Assembly: GCA_040880805.1 (NCBI GenBank)
Contig: JBBDHW010000055.1
Coordinates: 37,665 to 71,336 of the forward strand
From: Acidimicrobiia bacterium
GTDB lineage: Bacteria > Actinomycetota > Acidimicrobiia > IMCC26256 > DASPTH01
Direction of reading: 5' to 3'
Length of the DNA: 33,672 bases
Shown piece by piece: positions 15,660-18,899 of the stretch. Both the position numbers and the translations under genes were made by a program. A model generated the notes under the pieces. It ran no database searches and was not told the origin of the DNA. It worked only from the letters and a program-made list of their open reading frames with translations. Within the stretch, counting starts at the first letter, position 1. Every line of letters starts with the position of its first letter.

Positions 15660-16747
15660 CGAAGAGCGTCGCCGGCACCCGGGACCCGATCCCCGACTGG
15701 GCGTCCGACCCCGAGTTCCACCGGCATCTCATGGAAGACATGCTGGTCGCCCGGCGCGCGTCGGAACGGCTCTGGAACCTGCAACGGCAGGGACGGATCA
15801 CCACGATCCCGCCGCTCACCGGGCAGGAAGCCGCGATCGTCGGCGTCGTGCGCGCGCTCGACCTCGAGCACGACTGGCTCGCCCCGTACTACCGCGAGCC
15901 GCTCGGGATGGCCGCGCTCGGCGATGAGTTCCTCGAGCAGGTCGTCATGTACTGGCGCGGCCATCCCGACGGGGGACACATCCCCGACGGTGTGCTGTGC
16001 CTCCCACCCCAGATCTCGCTGGGCGCACAGGTGCCGCACGCCGCGGGAATCGCGTGGGGACTGAAGCTGCAAGGCAAGCCCGGCGTCGCCTGCACGTTCA
16101 TCGGCGACGGCGCCACCTCGGAAGGTGACTTCTACGAGGGCTTGAACCTCGCCGGCGTGCAGCGCGTGCCATTGCTCGTGGTGGTGCTCAACAACGGGTG
16201 GGCGATCTCGACGCCCACCACGCGCCAGACCGCAGCGTCGACGTTCGCGGCGAAGGCCGAAGCAGTGGGCGTACCCGGGGTTCGCGTCGACGGCAACGAC
16301 GTGCTGGCAGTGGTCGAGGCCGCGCGCGCGGCGCGGGCGCGTGCAGTGGCAGGCGCTGGCCCCACGCTGCTCGAGCTCATCACCTACCGGATGGGCGCGC
16401 ACACCAACTCCGACGACCCCACGCGCTACGTGCCCGAGTCCGAGCTCGCCGCGTGGAGGAAGCGCGATCCGATCGACCGGCTTCGCGCGCGCCTGACCGA
16501 AGCCGGGTCGTGGGACGACGCGAGGCATCAAGCGCTCGTCGACACGGTGGAGGCCCGCCTCGAGCGCATCATCGAGGCCGCGTTCGCCCACCCGGTCGAC
16601 CCGAACACCGCGCTCGACCACCGCACCGCGCACGACGACCCCCGACTCGCGCGGCAACGAGACGAGCTGGCGGCACGCATCGGCGCGCGTCGCGAGAAAA
16701 CAGGGGCCGAGGAAGCACGAGAAGGGGACATCTCGTGGCGGGCGTGA
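15653..16747 (+). CDS. 2-oxoacid dehydrogenase E1 component, alpha subunit
   Basis: 364-residue thiamine diphosphate-dependent E1 alpha subunit of the pyruvate/branched-chain 2-oxoacid dehydrogenase class. The ThDP/Mg motif begins with 'GDGATSEGDFYEGLNLA' (about 151) and ends with the 'NNGWAIST' segment. 'TYRMGAHTNSDDPTRY' (about 245-260) corresponds to the phosphorylation-loop/His region. The GTG start is uncertain because it lies in a UUCG hairpin and lacks a ribosome site; no better start exists before residue 25. The first gene of a three-gene operon, overlapping E1 beta by 13 bases. Pyruvate versus branched-chain oxoacid specificity cannot be read from the sequence; the heterodimeric E1 fits either. 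Confidence 0.92.
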   Translation: MEAKSVAGTRDPIPDWASDPEFHRHLMEDMLVARRASERLWNLQRQGRITTIPPLTGQEAAIVGVVRALDLEHDWLAPYYREPLGMAALGDEFLEQVVMYWRGHPDGGHIPDGVLCLPPQISLGAQVPHAAGIAWGLKLQGKPGVACTFIGDGATSEGDFYEGLNLAGVQRVPLLVVVLNNGWAISTPTTRQTAASTFAAKAEAVGVPGVRVDGNDVLAVVEAARAARARAVAGAGPTLLELITYRMGAHTNSDDPTRYVPESELAAWRKRDPIDRLRARLTEAGSWDDARHQALVDTVEARLERIIEAAFAHPVDPNTALDHRTAHDDPRLARQRDELAARIGARREKTGAEEAREGDISWRA

Positions 16748-17715
16748 CGATGCTCGCTGCGATCCACGACACGATCGCAAACGAGATGGCCCGCGACGAG
16801 CGCGTCGTCGTGCTCGGAGAGGACGTCGGGCGCAACGGCGGTGTCTTCCGCGTCACCGATGGCCTGCTCGACCGGTTCGGCGAGTCCCGCGTGTTCGACA
16901 CCCCGATCTCGGAGGCCGCCATCATCGGCGCGAGCGTGGGACTGTCCGTCACGGGAATGGTGCCGATCGTCGAGATCCAGTTCGCGGGCTTCGCCGCGCA
17001 GGCCTACCACCAGATCGTCGGCCAGCTCTCGCGGATGCGGTACCGCAGCCGCGGCCGGTTCCACTGCCCGGTCACGGTGCGCGCGGCATACGGAGGCGGC
17101 ATCCGCACGCCTGAGCACCACCCCGACTCGATCGAGGCCCCGTACGCGCACACCCCGGGAATCACGGTCGTCGTGCCGTCGAACCCCGCCGACGCGAAGG
17201 GGCTCCTCGCGAGCGCCATCCGCGATCCCGACCCCGTGCTGTTCCTCGAGCCCATCCCGCTCTACCGACACGCGCGCGACGACGTTCCCGAGGGTGAGCA
17301 CCTCATCGAGCTCGGCCGCGCGTCCGTCGTGCGCGAGCCCGCGGACGCGGTCGTCGTCGCGTGGGGTGCGATGGTGCCGGTCGCGTGTGAGGCAGCCGAC
17401 GTGATCGGCGAGCGACGCGGTGCGCAGGTGGGCGTGGTCGATCTGCGCACGCTCGCACCGCTCGACGTGGAGACGCTCGTGTCCGCAGCCGAACGCGCGG
17501 GGCGCGTGGTCGTCGTGCACGAGGCGCCGCTCACCGCCGGCTTCGGGGCCGAGGTGGTCGCCACGATCCAGGAAGAGGCGTTCTATTCGCTCGAGGCCCC
17601 GATCCGGCGCGTCGCCGGGTACGACGTGCCGGCACCCGTGCCGCTCGTCGAGGACTGGTGCCGGCCCGACACCGCGCGCGTCGTTGCGGCGCTGGAGGCG
17701 TCGCTGGATGCCTGA
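16735..17715 (+). CDS. 2-oxoacid dehydrogenase E1 component, beta subunit
   Basis: 326-residue E1 beta subunit, partner of the preceding alpha subunit. Transketolase-like pyrimidine-binding domain with 'VVVLGEDVGRNGGVFRVTDGL' (about 23-43), 'FDTPISEAAIIGASVGL' containing the ThDP-activating Glu, and 'MVPIVEIQFAGFAAQAYHQIV'; the C-terminal transketolase domain carries 'VGVVDLRTLAPLDVETL'. The GTG at 16735 is favoured by a GAAGGGGA site 7 bases upstream; ATG 16750 is an alternative. Its stop overlaps the E2 ATG (TGATG), so all three subunits are translationally coupled. Confidence 0.93.
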   Translation: MAGVTMLAAIHDTIANEMARDERVVVLGEDVGRNGGVFRVTDGLLDRFGESRVFDTPISEAAIIGASVGLSVTGMVPIVEIQFAGFAAQAYHQIVGQLSRMRYRSRGRFHCPVTVRAAYGGGIRTPEHHPDSIEAPYAHTPGITVVVPSNPADAKGLLASAIRDPDPVLFLEPIPLYRHARDDVPEGEHLIELGRASVVREPADAVVVAWGAMVPVACEAADVIGERRGAQVGVVDLRTLAPLDVETLVSAAERAGRVVVVHEAPLTAGFGAEVVATIQEEAFYSLEAPIRRVAGYDVPAPVPLVEDWCRPDTARVVAALEASLDA

Positions 17716-17720
17716 TGCCT
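17706..17720 (+). repeat. Short tandem repeat at the E1 beta/E2 junction
   Basis: The heptamer GATGCCT occurs twice in direct succession and is followed by GA. It encodes the last E1 beta codons, its stop and the overlapping E2 ATG. The result is two ATGCCTGA units, only the second of which is in frame with E2. Confidence 0.7.
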
Positions 17721-18899
17721 GACCCAGTGGTCGAGTCGGTGCCGTTCCGGTTGCCGGATCTCGGAGAGGGAATGGCCGAGGCGGAGATCGTCCGGTGGGA
17801 GGTCGCGGTGGGCGAGCACGTCGCCCGCGATCAGATCGTCGCGATCGTGCAGACCGACAAGGCCGAGGTGGAGCTCCCCGTCCCGCACGCGGGCACGATC
17901 ACCGCGCTCGGCGGCGAGGTCGGCGACATCCTCCCCGTCGGCGCCACCATCCTCGAGCTCGTACCGGACGTACCGATCACCGAACCTGCGTCACCAGAGG
18001 TCGCTCTACGACCTTCAACGACGCAGGTTCGGAGGGAGGGGTCACCAGTGCAGGCGGCGCCGCCGGTGCGCAAGCTGGCGCGGGAGCTCGGGGTCGACCT
18101 CGAGCACGTGGCGGGCAGCGGTCCGGGCGGGCGGGTCACCGCAGGCGACGTGCGCGCCGCCGCGGCTCCCGAAGCGCCCGCTACAAGACCTGAGCCTGTG
18201 CCCGGCGACGAGCGAGTGCCGTTGCGCGGCATCCGACGCGCCATGGCGCGCAACATGGCCGAGGCGTGGCGAACGGTCCCGCACGTGTCGTTGTTCGACG
18301 AGATCGACGCGCGTCCGCTCCTCGACGCACTGCACGCGGCGCGGGAGCTGTCCGGATCCGACACGCTCACGCTCACGGCGTTCTTCGTGCGAGCGTCCGT
18401 CCTCGCACTCACCGCCCAGCCGCTCCTCAACGCGAGCCTCGACGATGCCGCCGAGGAGATCGTGTACCACCGCGCGATCAACATCGGCGTCGCGGTGGCG
18501 TCCGACGACGGGCTCGTCGTGCCCGTCGTGCACAACGCACAATCACTCAGCCTGCGCGCGCTCGGCGACGAGATCAGTCGCACGACTACAGCGGCGCGCG
18601 CGGGAGGCCTGCGTCGGGATGAGATCCGCGGCGCAACCTTCACCGTCACGAACTTCGGCACGGAGGGCGGTCGCTTCGCGACACCGATCGTCAGCCCACC
18701 GCAAGTGGCGATCCTCGGCTGCGGCGCGATCCGCACACAGCCGGTCGTCGACGGCGACCGGGTCGTCGCCGCGCCTGCGCTGCCGCTCTCTTTGTCGGCA
18801 GACCACCGTGTGGTCGACGGCCACCACGCAACGACCTTCCTCGACGCCATCGCCGCGCTGCTCCGCGCGCCGGTCCAGCTGCTCGCGAGCGACGAGTAG
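17715..18899 (+). CDS. 2-oxoacid dehydrogenase E2 (dihydrolipoamide acyltransferase)
   Basis: 394-residue E2 core subunit that transfers the acyl group from E1 to CoA. Domains in order: one lipoyl domain (about 8-82, lipoyl Lys49 in 'QTDKAEVE'), a linker (about 90-111), a peripheral subunit-binding domain ('VRKLARELGVDLEHVAGSG', about 117-150), and the catalytic domain with the active-site 'DHRVVDG' (about 363-369). No E3 (lipoamide dehydrogenase) gene follows, so the complex must use one encoded elsewhere. The linker coding region contains a 53-bp nested palindrome (17980-18032). The ATG overlaps the E1 beta stop; the 3' end abuts the convergent SRPBCC gene. Confidence 0.93.
   Translation: MPDPVVESVPFRLPDLGEGMAEAEIVRWEVAVGEHVARDQIVAIVQTDKAEVELPVPHAGTITALGGEVGDILPVGATILELVPDVPITEPASPEVALRPSTTQVRREGSPVQAAPPVRKLARELGVDLEHVAGSGPGGRVTAGDVRAAAAPEAPATRPEPVPGDERVPLRGIRRAMARNMAEAWRTVPHVSLFDEIDARPLLDALHAARELSGSDTLTLTAFFVRASVLALTAQPLLNASLDDAAEEIVYHRAINIGVAVASDDGLVVPVVHNAQSLSLRALGDEISRTTTAARAGGLRRDEIRGATFTVTNFGTEGGRFATPIVSPPQVAILGCGAIRTQPVVDGDRVVAAPALPLSLSADHRVVDGHHATTFLDAIAALLRAPVQLLASDE
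17980..18032. repeat. 53-bp nested palindrome inside the E2 linker
   Basis: Outer arms CCGAACCTGCGTC and GACGCAGGTTCGG are perfect over 13 bp. Symmetric 5-base internal loops follow, then inner arms AGGTCG and CGACCT around a 5-base loop. The whole element lies in frame in the flexible linker between the lipoyl and subunit-binding domains. An 8-bp direct repeat GTCACCAG occurs at 17990 and 18041. Confidence 0.88.

Follow-up and report, generated by a model that had tools for sequence, protein, structure and literature searches.

The window, a stretch of DNA of 33,672 nucleotides (contig C55:37665-71336 of a genome of 3.49 Mb in 69 contigs), harbours a gene for a 2-oxoacid dehydrogenase E2 acyltransferase that carries a long palindrome within its coding sequence (Table 1). 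This raises the question what the palindrome is and how it came to lie inside a gene. An earlier note, made from the sequence alone, had described it as a nested palindrome of 53 bp placed in frame in the E2 linker. The palindrome is the top-ranked inverted repeat in the surrounding kilobase. Its outer arms are perfect and enclose an inner stem with a 5-nt loop. The calculated RNA fold has a free energy of -40 kcal/mol compared to -22 ± 3 kcal/mol in 200 dinucleotide shuffles, none of which was as stable (z -6). By sequence, inverted-repeat ranking and folding the palindrome is thus real, at exactly the position first given. The outer stem and loop described earlier stand as well, while in the RNAfold structure the internal loop is 4/4 rather than 5/5 and the inner stem 7 bp rather than 6 bp, a trivial difference. 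The E2 reading frame stays open across the palindrome, which indeed lies in frame between the two Pfam domains.

Table 1 Positions in the window of the palindrome and of the E2 gene that carries it
Feature	Position	Strand	Remarks
Palindromic element	17980..18032	.	53 bp; 51-nt core 17981-18031 plus one further paired base on each side
Left outer arm CCGAACCTGCGTC	17980..17992	.	GCGTC core near-invariant among copies
Right outer arm GACGCAGGTTCGG	18020..18032	.	
Inner hairpin AGGTCG-CTCTA-CGACCT	17998..18014	.	
Host gene, 2-oxoacid dehydrogenase E2 acyltransferase, 394 aa	17715..18899	+	element corresponds to ~residues 89-106
Lipoyl domain, Biotin_lipoyl PF00364	17745..17960	+	Pfam
Interdomain linker, 29 codons	17961..18047	+	mostly element-derived
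E3-binding domain, E3_binding PF02817	18048..18155	+	Pfam

The element-encoded segment is missing from every E2 homologue in the order, and linker lengths differ freely. Since the closest E2 homologues are only 40-45 % identical and their linkers vary in this way, no base-level empty site can be drawn in an E2 homologue. The E1-beta and E2 genes (window 16735-18899) overlap at TGATG, and translational coupling, which is ordinary, is therefore likely. The suggestion that the palindrome might act as an mRNA structure between these coupled subunits was not supported, as the family is dispersed among unrelated genes. A short direct repeat at one arm and just beyond the element, GTCACCAG, is present (17990-17997 and 18041-18048), but it is not significant, as 14 % of the 70-nt windows here contain a repeated 8-mer. 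A flanking duplication like GTCACCAG was not seen in the element family. The E2 copy is best seen as a tolerated landing, and a role in E2 is not needed to explain it.

A search of the genome revealed about 50 other copies, dispersed over the contigs. The earlier note had likened the palindrome to elements that insert into genes of other bacteria, and held that conservation in distant E2 proteins together with the lack of any other copy would speak against insertion; the opposite was found on both counts. The core length is fixed at 51 nt, without indels in nearly all aligned copies, and the segments GCGTC and GACGC are near-invariant at fixed spacing. The arm motif gave 89 matches compared to 10 for a reversed control. 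Within the genome the inner stems covary. Double-changed cells number 50, compared to 33 ± 4 after shuffling of columns, and pairing holds in 82 % of cells, compared to 28-43 % once the partner is displaced by 1-3 columns. Rfam returned only sub-threshold, microRNA-like chance matches for the palindrome.

Genes around the copies were called by a simple gene finder based on codon usage, with this genome as training set. The 53 copies classified by position comprise 27 between convergent genes, 18 between codirectional genes, 2 between divergent genes, 5 in genes and 1 at a contig end, and most copies lie at most ~20 nt from a stop codon. Convergent gaps that bear an element have a median of 9 nt after subtraction of 51 nt, compared to 6 nt for element-free convergent gaps; the element therefore acts as an extra ~51 bp in a tiny gap of the usual kind. 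All copies within genes are in frame. Apart from the E2 linker they are found in the C-terminal tails of three proteins (an MFS transporter, a lipoyl-protein ligase/synthase-like protein and a DUF501 protein) and between domains of an AtuA protein. The AtuA copy (L122 2009-2059), the second interdomain insertion besides E2, is a variant palindrome with GTTTTGGCGTC arms and a borderline model score, located in the stretch that joins the AtuA domain to its ferredoxin-like domain. Together with copies at the N-terminus of PyrD (see below), these in-frame copies strengthen the insertion reading. Across the family, direct repeats of 2-6 nt were not in excess in the flanks, whichever offset was used, and thus gave no sign of target-site duplication. 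A C following the stop codon is enriched near elements, and the right flank is G-rich (44 % G, 20 % T). Covariation between the C-rich left and the G-rich right flanks did not exceed permutation, and extension of the hairpin into the flanks was rejected. An excess of open frames among the copies, as a sign of selection for all frames being open, was not found.

The same architecture with other sequences is present in 33 of 120 relatives in the order (model R1). The order's genomes carry sister families, each with a distinct stem sequence. In the wider phylum the palindrome model matched only 3 of 296 genomes, this genome included. A scan for the pattern in 84,980 named genomes retrieved several Acidimicrobiia/Actinomycetota MAGs, and the inner palindrome was a different one in each. 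Covariation was also evident across genomes (155 double-changed cells compared to 64 ± 6), and the outer arms covary between genomes, AAC/GTT with TTC/GAA. In the cross-genome alignment GCGTC is fixed by the regular-expression selection in all rows from other genomes, and its invariance there is not independent evidence.

Genomes G002 and G018 belong to the same genus, yet have only about 4 of the 25/30 sampled sites in common and carry different stem types. Even two genomes of one genus thus have few sites in common, a turnover like that of mobile DNA. The carB-pyrD junction contains an element in this genome (L242, contig C67), in G002 (L225/L244), in G018 (L246/L330) and in G006 (L259), representing three families of genomes, while most other genomes examined of the order lack it. 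Each of these elements is part of an open frame running into the PyrD N-terminus. The codon phase of the element differs between at least two of these genomes, and insertion may thus have occurred repeatedly at a tolerant site. A copy is also located between rpoB and rpoC in this genome (L011 280-330, contig C56), and none is found there in a relative (L156). Two elements in genomes of different families (L013 and L221) directly follow the stop of the same orthologous VWA/CoxE-like gene; their inner stems are similar and their outer arms different. Two apparent same-site coincidences (L015/L226 and L026/L236) were rejected, since the elements lie at opposite ends of the orthologous gene. The insertion ends of the elements given here are approximate.

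A Y1/HUH RAYT gene (PF01797) was found in 4 of 58 genomes overall, and in neither this genome nor any element-rich genome of the order. Clustering of element-adjacent genes across genomes yielded one gene family that recurrently lies between two elements, the sole such family found. It encodes a protein of ~300 residues in this genome, in G002, in G018 (two copies) and in an SXJQ MAG, and a broken copy lies beside an element in G044. The gene in this genome is located on contig C2 (36200-37117) with palindromes on both sides; its predicted neighbours encode a protein without assignment and an aconitase C-terminal-domain protein. Two other recurrently adjacent families, identified by Pfam or sequence, look like common large families (SDR confirmed) and are not bracketed. 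The first two thirds of the bracketed protein, its N-terminal and middle parts, match AbiEi profiles (PADLOC E ~1e-30), and public records name its homologues type IV toxin-antitoxin AbiEi family antitoxins. In AbiE type IV toxin-antitoxin systems AbiEi binds inverted repeats (PMC7319586). The C-terminal end weakly matches MTES_1575/DUF559/Vsr-like nuclease domains, with Pfam MTES_1575 and DUF559 below cut-off. The most conserved positions in 59 homologues are E207, D240, E251, H258 and D267, kept in 56-59 of the 59, and the motif reads E-D-ExD-H-D-R-GW, as in a PD-(D/E)XK site. The likeness of this domain to Vsr/DUF559/MTES_1575 (PD-(D/E)XK) consists of the motif and the sub-threshold profile matches. 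A sequence profile of the nuclease gave no match in the PDB. A single-sequence AlphaFold2 model was of low confidence (mean pLDDT 46); its Foldseek and VIA matches were uninterpretable, and no nuclease fold stood out among them. Judged from its sequence, the protein appears to be an AbiEi-like winged-helix region fused to a predicted Vsr/DUF559-like PD-(D/E)XK nuclease domain. This extra C-terminal domain, as predicted, sets the candidate mobiliser apart from AbiEi antitoxins.

The protein family is common (48 of 58 genomes), and mere co-occurrence with palindromes is therefore uninformative. Flanking palindromes were instead scored on both sides of the gene, with at least 16 of 20 pairs within 330 nt, at the 30 best-scoring loci in the order, 26 of which had enough flank; this is not a random sample, and the fractions are not population estimates. 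Palindromes on both sides were found at 11 of these 26 nuclease loci compared to none of 29 pyrD and 26 E2 loci in the same genomes (0/55 controls; Fisher p 6e-7), while 15 of the 26 lacked them. In a wider phylum sample, likewise taken from the 30 best-scoring loci, 4 of 27 loci had them, one of the four (G015) within the order, and 23 did not. Left and right palindromes are alike within a locus (mean identity 0.90 compared to 0.41 across loci). Palindrome similarity tracks protein similarity (Mantel r 0.58, reached in 0 of 2000 permutations). At two bracketed loci in other families the palindrome is unlike GCGTC (e.g. TCTCGGCACG.., GTGCGTTCACAGACAACC..), and in G015 a different arm, GAACTTCGGG, is common to the gene-flanking pair and one solo copy. 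The bracketing, the left-right identity and the tracking of protein relatedness fit a dedicated enzyme-palindrome pair. A literature search retrieved nothing relevant on Acidimicrobiia palindromes, RAYT in Actinobacteria, or DUF559/AbiEi with palindromes.

These data suggest that the E2 palindrome is probably a non-autonomous copy of a REP-like mobile element that would be moved by the bracketed AbiEi-like nuclease. The AbiEi-like region may bind the palindrome, probably in extruded or single-stranded form because pairing is conserved more than sequence. The nuclease would cut or nick at the palindrome, and a copy of the hairpin would arise at a new site with no duplication of the target. As in REP/RAYT, the self-mobilising form would comprise the gene and the palindromes on its two sides, and solo palindromes would be passengers moved in trans. 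Copies would survive only where they are harmless. Nearly all of them either closely follow a stop codon or occupy, in frame, a domain linker or the end of a protein, and the E2 copy may have persisted because its length and the absence of stops leave an open linker. More generally, it is conceivable, if tentative, that Actinomycetota harbour self-spreading palindromes that owe their mobility not to an HUH or DDE transposase but to an AbiEi-PD-(D/E)XK nuclease. This would be an analogue of the REPtron that uses a restriction-type nuclease and in which enzyme and hairpin co-evolve.

It could also be argued that the palindromes are mobile and REP-like but moved by an unrelated enzyme, the AbiEi-nuclease gene being a passenger or regulating itself via a captured palindrome. 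The many nuclease genes without flanking palindromes (15/26, and 23/27 in the wider phylum) agree with this, and an operator could account for some of the association upstream of the gene, as AbiEi antitoxins bind inverted repeats in their own promoters (PMC7319586). An operator, however, is not expected downstream of the gene as well, nor as ~50 solo copies after stops. The flanking on both sides, the left-right identity and the tracking of protein relatedness fit a dedicated pair, and the best-studied alternative mover, the Y1/HUH transposase, is missing from every element-rich genome searched. A different mover is thus considered rather unlikely.

The position of the copies a few nt past stops, mainly between convergent genes, and the high stability of the hairpins would suit bidirectional terminators or mRNA 3'-end structures kept for their function. 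This is nevertheless highly improbable, in view of the copies in the E2 gene, at the carB-pyrD junction and at rpoB-rpoC, where strong termination would harm. No U-tract follows the hairpin, most convergent gaps have no element and, the 51 bp set aside, are of the same size, and the common arm sequences within a genome would be left unexplained. The near-invariant GCGTC/GACGC at fixed spacing might instead point to dispersed double-stranded sites bound by a chromosomal protein, either operators or sites that organise the genome, which were spread by convergence and not by transposition; a dimeric DNA-binding protein would also need a palindrome. This is hardly credible, since within one genome the inner stem sequence changes while its pairing stays, each genome has its own family with sites that rarely correspond, and the in-frame gain in genes and the element-free sites fit insertion.

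A mobile element moved by the bracketed nuclease can be compared with several known systems. GTAG REPs/REPINs with RAYT (TnpA-REP; REPtrons) are short many-copy palindromes of lineage-specific types with a dedicated enzyme gene flanked by them (PMC3733652, PMC8266576). Like REP/RAYT, the present elements occur mostly downstream of genes, between convergent ORFs, with some inside ORFs, and the enzyme gene is bracketed by the same palindromes. Unlike GTAG REPs, they form a single, nearly full-length hairpin of ~51 nt, and no conserved GTAG was found at the ends of aligned copies. The candidate enzyme differs from that of REPtrons: in place of a Y1/HUH transposase it combines an AbiEi-like region and a nuclease of the PD-(D/E)XK type, both predicted. 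CGTC-tagged REPs, including Rickettsia RPE-4/RPE-6, have CGTC near their ends, lie within 20 bp of both ORFs and include in-frame intragenic copies; in a 2013 survey this super-family was apparently without a dedicated transposase (PMC3733652). The elements resemble these REPs in CGTC near the ends, 3'-end positions and in-frame intragenic copies. The published CGTC REPs, however, have an unpaired terminal CGTC, a stem of 8-9 bp, a loop of 4-5 nt and a CCA-like tail and occur mostly in Alphaproteobacteria (PMC3733652), while here CGTC is paired with GACG inside a stem of ~20 bp and does not agree with that description. The system would thus work like a REPtron but belongs to neither the GTAG REP/RAYT class, because GTAG tag and RAYT are both missing, nor the CGTC REP class. 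In the broad sense the palindromes are REP-like, being short, dispersed, mainly intergenic near gene 3' ends, and divided into lineage-specific families with site turnover. They are not RAYT-REPs, because target duplication is absent and the element-rich genomes have no Y1/HUH transposase.

In TIRtrons a RAYT-like gene lies between long terminal inverted repeats, of which some are self-complementary; these repeats also occur solo and in moderate abundance (PMC3733652). Here too a putative enzyme gene lies between two similar repeats that also occur solo, but the TIRtron enzyme is an HUH tyrosine transposase. Rickettsia palindromic elements (RPE-1) are listed beside REPs and described as longer palindromic insertions, with no nuclease linked to them there (PMC3733652); in-frame insertion into protein genes is a property in common. 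Three further candidates were rejected: a DDE insertion sequence or MITE for lack of a target-site duplication, a Rho-independent terminator because no T run follows the hairpin in the G-rich right flank (composition given above), and an integron attC because the AAC/GTT cores are replaced by TTC/GAA in G002 and other genomes and copies are dispersed singly.

Short palindromic repeats are common in bacteria, and only those with an HUH transposase (RAYT) have a proposed mover. A RAYT-less palindrome family that consistently brackets one nuclease family, both diverging together, makes it testable what moves such repeats. If the proposed pairing is true, such a nuclease could point to the enzyme that moves RAYT-less REPs elsewhere. 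The bracketing further suggests that in Actinomycetota certain proteins labelled AbiEi antitoxins may be parts of mobile elements. The copies in E2 and PyrD illustrate how elements add in-frame peptide segments to essential proteins.

Other repeats were observed outside this family. Nostocoides japonicum T1-X7 harbours three copies (L170, L188 and L204) of another long palindrome, of the GGACGGA-GAACTTGCGTC..GACGCAAGTTC-TCCGTCC type. GAACTGGCGTCTAGAGCGCGCTGCGAAAAAGTGGACGCCGGTTTTTC is a near-identical repeat in two alphaproteobacteria, Methylocystis rosea (L184) and an alphaproteobacterial MAG (L189).
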